A stretch of DNA of 37,435 nucleotides from Ruminococcus sp. GTDB lineage: Bacteria > Bacillota > Clostridia > Oscillospirales > Acutalibacteraceae. Shown piece after piece: positions 11,021-27,365 of this stretch (its first letter is position 1; each line of letters starts with the position of its first letter). The notes below the pieces were generated by a model that worked only from the letters and a program-made list of their open reading frames with translations, had not been told where the DNA came from and searched no databases. Location of the stretch: positions 1-37,435 of the forward strand of contig JAFRDE010000006.1 of assembly GCA_017403985.1 (NCBI GenBank), in the 5' to 3' direction. Made by a program: the position numbers and the translations under genes.

Positions 11021-11044
11021 TAAACAGTATAAACAGATAAAAAG

Positions 11045-11085
11045 AAGGCTATGGAAGCGTGATGTTTCCATAGCCTTTGTTTTTT
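11045..11085. terminator. terminator after groEL, possibly bidirectional
   Basis: AAGGCTATGGAA and TTCCATAGCCTT form a 12-bp stem followed by TTGTTTTTTG. The A-rich left flank could also give a U tract on the minus strand for the converging tarJ. Confidence 0.88.
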
Positions 11086-24971: not shown

Positions 24972-25001
24972 TTGACACCGAATCGTATTCCATGATAAAA
25001 T
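24972..25001 (+). promoter_or_regulatory. sigma-A-type promoter for rmuC
   Basis: TTGACA (24972-24977), an 18-base spacer and TAAAAT (24996-25001). A family A repeat (GTAGGGGAGGGGCTTGC, about 25020-25045) lies between it and the ATG. Confidence 0.6.
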
Positions 25002-25067: not shown

Positions 25068-26312
25068 ATGGATACGGTTCAGTTTATCGTCCTTGTCGTT
25101 ATCGGCTTAGCCGGTATCGCCGCGGCGCTGGCGGCGATTATTATAATTCCAAAAAAGAATCAAATCAGCAGTGAAGAGCTTTCCGCCATGCGTACCGAGA
25201 TCGTGACCTCGACCCAGAATTCCGTGAAGAACATGGGCGACATGATCGCGATGAATCAACAGAGCTTTTCCGCTTCTCAAAGCGAAAAGTTCACCCATCT
25301 GGAGCATCGGTTCCAGACTTTTGCCCTCGAAAATGAGCAAAAGCTTGAGAATATCCGCCGCACGATGGAGGAACAGCTTGACGAGATCCGCGAGGACAAC
25401 AATAAGCAGCTCGAAGAGATGCGCGCGACCGTAGACGATAAGCTGCAAAAGACGCTCGAGGAAAAGATGAATCAGAGCTTTGCCCTCGTCAGCGAACGGC
25501 TCGAGCAGGTGTACAAGGGACTCGGCGAAATGCAGACCCTCGCCGTCGGCGTCGGCGACCTGAAAAAGGTGCTCAGTAACGTCAAGACCCGTGGTATCGT
25601 CGGCGAGATCCAGCTCGGCGCGATCCTCGAAGAGATCCTCACGCCCGACCAGTACGATACCAACGTCGTCACCAAACCCGGTTCGCGCGATGTGGTAGAG
25701 TTCGCGATCAAGCTGCCCGCGAGCGACGACGGCTTCATTTATCTGCCGATCGACAGCAAGTTCCCCGGCGACAGCTATGCCGCCCTGCGCGACGCGTACG
25801 AAAGCGGCTCCAAGGAAGAGATAGACGCCGCGGCAAAGGCGCTGACCGTCACCATCCGCCGCGAGGCGAAGGATATCCGCGATAAGTATATCTCCCCGCC
25901 CGACACCACCGAGTTCGCCGTGATGTTCCTGCCTTTCGAGGGCTTATACAGCGAGGTCGTCAACCGCGGTATGATCGAGGTTTTACAGCGAGACTACAAG
26001 GTCGTGATCGCGGGACCGTCCACGATGGCGGCGCTGCTCAATTCCATCCGCATGGGCTTCAAGACCCTCGCCGTCCAGAAGCGTTCCGCCGAGGTCTGGA
26101 AGCTGTTAGGCTCCGTGAAAAGCGAGTTCGAGACCTTCAACGCCGTTCTTCTCGCGACGCAGGCGAAGCTCGATCAGGCGAACAAGGAGCTCGATAAGCT
26201 CGTCGGCGTGCGCTCGCGCCAGATCAGCCGCAAGCTCGCCGCCGTCGAGAGCAACGACGCGCCTGTCAGCGCTTATTTTTCTCCAACAGAAAATTATTCC
26301 GAAGGAGAATGA
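25068..26312 (+). CDS. rmuC: DNA recombination protein RmuC
   Basis: A 414-residue protein: an N-terminal membrane helix (FIVLVVIGLAGIAAALAAIIII), a long coiled coil (about 60-150), then the RmuC nuclease-like domain (VKTRGIVGEIQLGAILEEIL; VVEFAIKLP; YLPIDSKFPGDSY; VMFLPFEGLYSEV; GPSTMAALLNSIRMGFKTLA). In E. coli RmuC limits inversions at short inverted repeats. That is suggestive given how many inverted repeats this window contains, but the link is speculation. AGAGAGG precedes the ATG. Confidence 0.95.
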   Translation: MDTVQFIVLVVIGLAGIAAALAAIIIIPKKNQISSEELSAMRTEIVTSTQNSVKNMGDMIAMNQQSFSASQSEKFTHLEHRFQTFALENEQKLENIRRTMEEQLDEIREDNNKQLEEMRATVDDKLQKTLEEKMNQSFALVSERLEQVYKGLGEMQTLAVGVGDLKKVLSNVKTRGIVGEIQLGAILEEILTPDQYDTNVVTKPGSRDVVEFAIKLPASDDGFIYLPIDSKFPGDSYAALRDAYESGSKEEIDAAAKALTVTIRREAKDIRDKYISPPDTTEFAVMFLPFEGLYSEVVNRGMIEVLQRDYKVVIAGPSTMAALLNSIRMGFKTLAVQKRSAEVWKLLGSVKSEFETFNAVLLATQAKLDQANKELDKLVGVRSRQISRKLAAVESNDAPVSAYFSPTENYSEGE

Positions 26313-26327
26313 TAATTTTGTATTCCG

Positions 26328-26500
26328 TAGGGGACGGCGCTTGCGGCGTCCCGCACGTTTGTCACTATCTCTCTCAACCGCGAAGCATATGAAGCATTTC
26401 CGAGGCTCCCTTTGGGAAAGGGAGCTGTATGCAAAGCAGACTGAGGAATTGCATTGATTGTTTGAGGCGAAGCCGAGTATCCTTTCCCAAAGGAAGGCTT
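26328..26500. repeat. family A and family B repeats upstream of sigG
   Basis: GTAGGGGACGGCGCTTGCGG (family A, 26328) is followed by GGCTCCCTTTGGGAAAGGGAGC (26404-26425), GAGGAATTGCATTGATTG and CCTTTCCCAAAGGAAGG (family B). No gene is seen between rmuC and sigG. Confidence 0.7.
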
Positions 26501-26536
26501 ATAGACGCTCTGCTTCATTATTCAAGTATGAAACTG

Positions 26537-26578
26537 TCCCTCCGTGACAATACTATTCACAGTATTATCATGGAGGGA
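26537..26578 (+). promoter_or_regulatory. long leader hairpin covering the sigG ribosome-binding site
   Basis: TCCCTCCGTGACAATACT (26537-26554), a 6-base loop and AGTATTATCATGGAGGGA (26561-26578) pair over 18 positions with one G-U and one C-A. The 3' arm contains the sigG Shine-Dalgarno GGAGGG (26572-26577), 5 bases before the TTG start, so the hairpin should lower translation. Confidence 0.8.
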
Positions 26579-26582
26579 TTCT

Positions 26583-27365
26583 TTGTTATACAACAAGGTC
26601 GAGCTGTGCGGCGTCGATACCGCCCGCCTGCCCGTGCTCAGCGAGGAACAAAAGCATGATCTTTTATTAAAGATGCACTGCGGCACGCCCGAGGAACGCA
26701 AAAAAGCGCGTGAGGAAATGATCAGCGGCAACCTGCGTCTGGTGCTCAGCGTGATCCAGCGCTTCACCGGCAGGGGAGAGAACCTCGACGATCTGTTTCA
26801 GGTCGGCGTGATCGGACTGATCAAAGCGATCGACAACTTTGACGTTAGCCTTGACGTCCGCTTTTCCACCTACGGCGTTCCGATGATCATGGGCGAGCTG
26901 CGCCGCCACCTGCGTGACAGCTCCAGCCTGAGGATCTCGCGCTCCATGCGCGATACCGCCTACCACGCGATGCGAGCGAAGGAGGAGCTGACGATTCAGC
27001 TTAACCGCGAGCCGACTGTCGAGGAGATCGCCGCCGCGATCGACAGCGATAAGGAAAGCGTCGTGCTGGCGCTCGAGGCGATCGTGGAGCCCGTGTCGCT
27101 GTATGAACCGGTCTTTTCCGACGGTGCGGATACCGTCTATGTGATGGATCAGGTGGGGGATAAGAGCGACGATAAAGACTGGCTGGAGGAGATCGCCTTC
27201 AAGGAGGCGTTAAAGAAGCTCTCCGACCGTGAAAAGCGCATACTCTCCCTGCGCTATTTCAAGGGAAAGACACAAACCGAGGTAGCCGAAGAAATCGGAA
27301 TTTCCCAGGCGCAGGTCAGCCGCATCGAAAAAGGCGCGATCGACAGCATCAAGAGGGAATTATAG
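26583..27365 (+). CDS. sigG: forespore sporulation sigma factor SigG
   Basis: A 260-residue sigma-70 family protein, the normal SigG length. The start LYNKVELCGVDTARLPVL is the SigG signature. Region 2 contains GNLRLVLSVIQRF and DDLFQVGVIGLIKAIDNFD; region 4 ends with the helix-turn-helix KTQTEVAEEIGISQAQVSRIEKGAI. SigG drives late forespore genes after engulfment. The start is a TTG at 26583, 5 bases after GGAGGG, inside a long hairpin; no in-frame ATG fits. It is monocistronic here, without sigE or spoIIGA beside it. Confidence 0.93.
   Translation: MLYNKVELCGVDTARLPVLSEEQKHDLLLKMHCGTPEERKKAREEMISGNLRLVLSVIQRFTGRGENLDDLFQVGVIGLIKAIDNFDVSLDVRFSTYGVPMIMGELRRHLRDSSSLRISRSMRDTAYHAMRAKEELTIQLNREPTVEEIAAAIDSDKESVVLALEAIVEPVSLYEPVFSDGADTVYVMDQVGDKSDDKDWLEEIAFKEALKKLSDREKRILSLRYFKGKTQTEVAEEIGISQAQVSRIEKGAIDSIKREL

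Follow-up and report, generated by a model that had tools for sequence, protein, structure and literature searches.

In the Ruminococcus sp. DNA analysed here (the window, 37,435 nucleotides), the ribosome-binding site (RBS) of sigG lies in the 3′ arm of a long hairpin whose 5′ arm holds a match to a forespore-type promoter, and RBS-masking hairpins recur in many clostridial sigG leaders, mainly where the upstream gene points towards sigG. We propose, at a probability of roughly three in four, that the hairpin serves as a lock preventing expression of sigG from read-through RNA. A polymerase coming from the upstream gene would make RNA with both arms. In this read-through RNA the 3′ arm would pair the entire Shine–Dalgarno (SD) sequence, so that ribosomes would be unable to start SigG, and in this clade transcription may, in addition, stop at a U-rich tract that follows the stem. 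Polymerase carrying SigF, and later SigG, would start past the 5′ arm, leaving the hairpin unable to form and the message open; SigG would be made from its own promoter only, in the correct cell. The features involved are the following.

Positions 25068–26312, + strand: rmuC-family gene upstream of sigG (PF02646, E 3e-70).
Positions 26313–26526, no strand: intergenic stretch carrying a dispersed repeat; its + strand has no listed terminator-like site.
Positions 26526–26530, + strand: −35 element GTATG of the forespore-type promoter (matrix match; conserved in relatives).
Positions 26536–26554, + strand: 5′ arm of the hairpin, predicted to be in read-through RNA only (folds; covariation).
Positions 26546–26555, + strand: −10 element GACAATACTA, within the 5′ arm (matrix match; exact pattern at 5 genome sites).
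Positions 26561–26579, + strand: 3′ arm of the hairpin, carrying the SD (folds).
Position 26562, + strand: predicted transcription start, from the −10 position.
Positions 26572–26577, + strand: Shine–Dalgarno GGAGGG (sequence; 6/6 bases paired in the hairpin).
Positions 26579–26587, + strand: U-rich tract TTCTTTGTT that follows the stem and extends across the start codon (sequence).
Positions 26583–27365, + strand: sigG, with TTG start and sigma-70 domains.

The genome holding the window comprises 2,681,941 bases in 63 contigs, and its top match to the spore_sigG model is the gene named sigG here, at 371 bits under a curated cut-off of 457. The closest named relatives of the protein belong to Ruminococcus MAGs, the top one (97%) having come from goat ileum, and the TTG at 26583–26585 as start agrees with the alignment to relatives; a GTG in the same frame, at 26544, falls within the 5′ arm, with no SD seen on inspection of the bases before it. 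The likely source of read-through RNA towards sigG is rmuC. A strong sigma70-like promoter match ahead of that gene (24972–25001; 11/12, with TG preceding the second hexamer) hints at vegetative transcription heading to sigG, and a terminator scan of the + strand from rmuC to the hairpin listed no terminator-like site. The gap between the two genes, 270 nt, is longer than usual among the clusters of sigG loci compared below. The dispersed repeat at 26313–26526 yields 47 matches across the genome, its own copy counted, mostly over about 26403–26466; it is palindromic and MITE-like, and abuts the sigG promoter directly upstream. The spoIIGA-sigE pair, clustered with sigG in Bacillus subtilis and Clostridioides difficile, is separate from it in this genome.

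The stem spans 26536–26579 around a loop at 26555–26560, with 18 pairs, one C/A mismatch (26548/26567) and an outermost G·U pair. A sequence-only reading had described an 18-position stem that places GGAGGG in its 3′ arm, five bases ahead of the TTG, and both points hold, with all six SD bases paired and the spacer at 26578–26582. The fold of 26530–26585 reaches −26.1 kcal/mol against a shuffle mean of −9.0 (z −6.9; 0/200 shuffles equal), and that of 26500–26640 reaches −48.2 against −31.7 for shuffles (z −4.5; 0/200 equal). Counting stems of 18 positions in which 17 or more pair around a loop of 3–10, the window has 3, and 20 simulated sequences of equal length average 0.05. Of the two besides the sigG hairpin, the one at 11039–11083 is a strong stem with a T-run behind it and resembles an ordinary terminator. 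An Rfam search of the window at the gathering score, across 4227 families, gave 0 matches. A further sigma70-like match inside the hairpin (26544–26571, GTGACA-16-TATCAT, 10/12) is probably due to chance.

A −35/−10 match of the SigF/SigG type is present as sigG's own promoter in the window, its assignment relying in part on what we take to be the forespore consensus, and relatives have both this promoter and the stem in common. A matrix drawn from the 128 cluster representatives described below gives the consensus tGtATAA and GGCAATACTt. Its score lies above 95% of the null (sequence 200–300 bases upstream) in 123/128 clusters, a count that is partly circular because these leaders also served to train the matrix, and the −35 core and −10 are 15 or 14 bases apart in 114 of the 123 clusters passing the matrix threshold of 6. 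Setting the last −10 base as −7, following the B. subtilis description as we read it, places the predicted start at 26562, 21 nt upstream of the TTG. Because the 5′ arm lies upstream of this position, the hairpin is predicted to be absent from the forespore transcript; sigG's own RNA, judged from sequence, should be without the 5′ arm. In 97/123 clusters, three or more bases of the SD have pairing partners that lie upstream of the predicted start. In the window, the probability that the SD is unpaired is 0.44 in the predicted short RNA versus 0.0003 in read-through RNA, and the corresponding medians over the 123 clusters are 0.52 and 0.17.

Could the hairpin act within the sigG message, delaying SigG translation in the forespore, as the sequence-only reading had it? 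There is precedent in a small B. subtilis hairpin shown by mutation (PMC5942855), and modelling of the short RNA leaves the SD incompletely open. The 5′ arm, however, lies upstream of the predicted start, and the short RNA is no more structured than shuffles (26562–26622, 61 nt, z 0.51; 26562–26600, 39 nt, z −0.07). Adding the effect of upstream orientation presented below, we find this explanation quite improbable. The proposal of translational control by RBS masking survives in so far as the masking hairpin recurs among clostridia; the stage at which control was placed does not, on the present evidence, given the position of the 5′ arm.

For the comparison, sigG was searched in 100 genus, 250 family, 295 order and 391 class genomes, in overlapping sets, with a match in 91, 206, 239 and 290 of them, respectively; cut-offs were loose, and the class count of 290 takes in some other sigma factors. 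Part of these genome matches was fetched and 80 named sigG loci were added, named and unnamed loci overlapping before clustering. Altogether 282 loci were analysed, 279 with a usable leader, which fell into 128 clusters at 85% SigG identity. Complementarity of the RBS to the region −75 to −26 amounts to −16.3 kcal/mol in native leaders versus −10.8 with swapped partners, in which the upstream piece is taken from a different cluster (128 clusters). The native excess peaks at −4.6 for −62 to −36, is −1.5 for −76 to −50, and ranges from −0.9 to +0.2 further upstream. The comparison across Clostridia that had been suggested thus turns up an RBS-masking hairpin in many leaders: 59/128 clusters exceed at least 95% of 100 partner swaps (p 2e-14) and 32 exceed all, while 28/128 pair less well than the swapped mean. 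In folds, the RBS is masked in 0.76 of native leaders versus 0.46 of chimeras. Counting at least eight pairs across the start was rejected as a test (0.77 native versus 0.66 chimera); because this count hardly separates the two, the case rests on energies and swaps.

A hairpin might also arise as a by-product of a C-rich promoter spacer lying opposite a G-rich RBS, and swapped partners do pair, to the −10.8 kcal/mol given above. We consider this scarcely credible, as native pairing is stronger by 5.4 kcal/mol at equal compositions and the arms covary. In an alignment of the close clade, comprising 17 of the 23 distinct leaders of the same geometry (the 6 under 80% SigG identity being excluded), 89.2% of cells are paired versus at most 54% in slid versions, and the covariation score is 0.238 versus 0.151, with 0/500 shuffles as high. 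Over all 23 leaders 78% of cells pair, versus 39–51% when slid. Pairs changed on both sides number 5 versus 3.5, and 59/500 shuffles reach 5; the compensatory changes expected of close relatives are evident in the covariation score, with double-sided changes no more frequent than usual.

Is the conserved symmetry a property of RNA or of DNA? With a helix finder that treats every mismatch alike, native stems contain 74 G·T and 16 A·C mismatches versus 236 and 156 in swapped pairs (Fisher p 5e-5). Most of the difference comes from G in the 3′ arm, which has T opposite in 48/66 native versus 154/366 swapped cases (p 7e-6); outside the SD arm G·T is still enriched (p 0.005), and avoidance of A·C there is not seen (11/39 versus 61/344). 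On balance, these sequence patterns suggest that the stem is selected as sense RNA, and because the 5′ arm forms part of the PsigG promoter itself, the selected RNA would have to originate further upstream. An inverted repeat that overlaps the −10 and is nearly symmetrical could instead be a DNA dyad bound by a protein over the promoter. Yet the arms vary freely among clusters, G·T is tolerated above A·C, and the hairpin depends on the orientation of the upstream gene, all of which make a protein-binding dyad highly improbable.

A lock against read-through should matter only if the upstream gene faces sigG, and we therefore tested orientation, taking as neighbour the closest ORF of 90 aa or more (from a crude ORF caller; 127/128 clusters had sufficient upstream DNA) and calling a hairpin where a cluster exceeds 95% of swaps. 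Hairpins are found in 50/79 clusters with a same-strand upstream gene versus 9/48 with a divergent one (p 6e-7), and the effect persists at ORF cut-offs of 60, 90, 120 and 150 aa. Among same-strand loci the hairpin is present in 78% of 45 with a gap below 120 nt, 48% of 29 at 120–250 nt and 1/3 at 250–500 nt, and its strength rises as the distance falls (rho 0.39, p 4e-4). The same direction appears in each stratum, same-strand versus divergent: 12/23 versus 0/9 in the class set, 16/25 versus 6/22 in the order set, and 21/31 versus 4/17 in the family, genus and named loci together. It appears, too, in 34/48 nearest-relative pairs (p 5e-4), under swaps confined to orientation groups (difference p 3e-5) and in phylogenetic regression (PGLS; p 8e-6, lambda 0.07). 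Independent pairs on supported branches point the same way, 7.0 versus 2.7, without reaching significance (median p 0.29), and the divergent group retains some excess with within-group swaps (11/48, p 2e-3). A timer inside the PsigG message would leave this dependence on upstream orientation unexplained, which counts against it.

Two further features of the locus were compared with the hairpin. sigE lies at most 2.5 kb upstream of sigG in 26/128 clusters, and hairpins occur both with it (14/26) and without it (44/100), so its occurrence is not confined to the spoIIG operon. Non-ATG sigG starts, under our own start-choice rule, are found in 52/128 cluster representatives. The weak TTG had been taken as part of the same control. 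Non-ATG starts show no association with upstream orientation (Fisher p 0.36), and although TTG clusters have the hairpin in 21/36 cases and ATG clusters in 33/76, a tie between weak start codon and lock is not supported after phylogenetic correction (non-ATG starts versus hairpin, p 0.16).

It is also conceivable that the hairpin is mainly an intrinsic terminator of the rmuC transcript and that RBS masking is incidental, in which case the outcome would be alike, with no read-through SigG. The stem is followed by TTCTTTGTT, no terminator-like site is listed between rmuC and the hairpin, and the spacer before sigG is T-rich in general, with 3.49 versus 2.39 T of 8 in other genes and T runs of at least 5 before the start in 27% of sigG versus 7% of other genes. 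Spacer T is higher with a same-strand neighbour (3.91 versus 2.79; PGLS p 0.014) and tracks the hairpin (independent pairs 6.7 versus 0.2, median p 0.03; PGLS p 0.01). However, its relation to orientation is not significant in independent pairs (4.9 versus 2.8), the terminator scan does not list the window hairpin, whose tail is an interrupted U-tract, and 85/95 nested hairpins contain the SD whereas a U-tract follows the last GC pair in 19/95, a lower bound. Counted after the outermost pair, terminator-like cases are rarer in native leaders than in chimeras (0.03 versus 0.08). Both U-tract counts understate the tract because the fold can extend through it, as in the window, where it continues into the codons, giving a count of 1 of 8; their outcome depends on the definition, and we rejected them as a test. 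Termination as the main role seems unlikely to us. Masking is the common denominator of the sigG hairpins, and termination is a possible additional effect, this clade included.

Other genes were put through the same swap test, a start being obtained for 58/60 fetched spoIIR loci and 29/30 of gpr. Hairpins were counted in 1/29 gpr leaders, in 6/30 of spoIVA, above the 5% expected, and in 17/159 of other genes near sigG. For spoIIR they number 12/30 in the order and 9/28 outside it, the class set alone being not significant (p 0.22). Orientation has no effect on the spoIIR hairpin (16/39 versus 4/16), and because of this independence the read-through account is not established for that gene; its wobble asymmetry is not significant either (22 versus 5, swapped 85 versus 36, p 0.34). 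In gpr, z differs with orientation (p 0.036), yet hairpins number 1/12 versus 0/13. By eye, many of the spoIIR leaders L321–L350 seem to hold a forespore promoter within the hairpin, those of L333, L340 and L343 look like simple terminators whose ascending arm includes the −10, and spoIIR of the window's own genome has a similar stem. We entertain, tentatively and at somewhat less than even odds, the broader idea that clostridial developmental switch genes are generally insulated by promoter-nested locks, which would come and go as rearrangement leaves a co-directional or a divergent gene upstream. Under that idea, forespore promoters would be embedded in the rising arm of a hairpin that masks the RBS or terminates transcription, with sigG as the most clear-cut example and spoIIR as a possible second.

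A hairpin treated as a proposal in B. subtilis is thus found to recur across many clostridial sigG leaders, mainly where read-through threatens, which suggests how a potent late sigma factor could sit behind an active gene without leaking. The leaders constitute a natural experiment, with one gene and one promoter seen with and without a co-directional neighbour. They also indicate that an RBS hairpin needs checking against the start site before it is named a translational timer.

Several known systems offer comparison. B. subtilis sigG has two hairpins, one small and one large (PMC5942855). The small one, of 5 bp, lies within the PsigG leader and lowers translation 2-4-fold, as shown by mutation; likely counterparts were reported in 15/15 Bacilli and 4/13 Clostridia, and a non-ATG sigG start in 1/13 Clostridia (PMC5942855). 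The large spoIIIG (sigG) leader hairpin, of at least 20 pairs, was proposed to block read-through and is unable to form in PsigG RNA (PMC5942855, citing Sun 1991). Read-through transcripts of spoIIGA-sigE-sigG have been observed in both B. subtilis and C. acetobutylicum, and a forespore-type promoter has been mapped upstream of sigG in C. difficile (PMC3789822), where the sigG start was attributed to SigF, yet sigG was controlled by SigG and not SigF in the data (PMC7438776). In phage T4, a longer early RNA of gene e (lysozyme) hides the RBS, and RNA from late promoters just upstream, without the 5′ strand, gets translated (review, PMC3014915). Within the open-licence literature, a sigG hairpin of this kind appears, among the matches listed, only in PMC5942855, older work lying outside that scope.

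Like an intrinsic terminator, the window stem precedes a U-rich stretch; unlike one, it contains the promoter and RBS of the next gene, and its U-tract is interrupted. With the T4 gene e lock it would share a longer RNA that masks the RBS and an RNA from a nearer promoter that is predicted to lack the 5′ strand. Gene e, however, belongs to a phage and its late promoters are of a different type, so that the logic is alike and no descent is implied. The small B. subtilis hairpin, which the sequence-only reading took as the counterpart, also pairs the sigG RBS next to a weak start codon; it lies inside the PsigG message, however, from which the window hairpin should, by the predicted start, be absent, and the window probably carries the large kind, proposed to block read-through. 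Like the large hairpin, the window stem covers the sigG RBS and is predicted to be missing from PsigG RNA. It differs in the U-rich tract behind it and in its surroundings, with rmuC upstream and sigE elsewhere, whereas the read-through in B. subtilis comes from spoIIGA-sigE. We take the identity of the upstream gene to be context and not part of the mechanism, our claim being that the two work alike. The window hairpin is thus best understood as a clostridial example of a known, little-tested kind of lock, whose purpose now has comparative evidence of a sort absent from the literature we reached.
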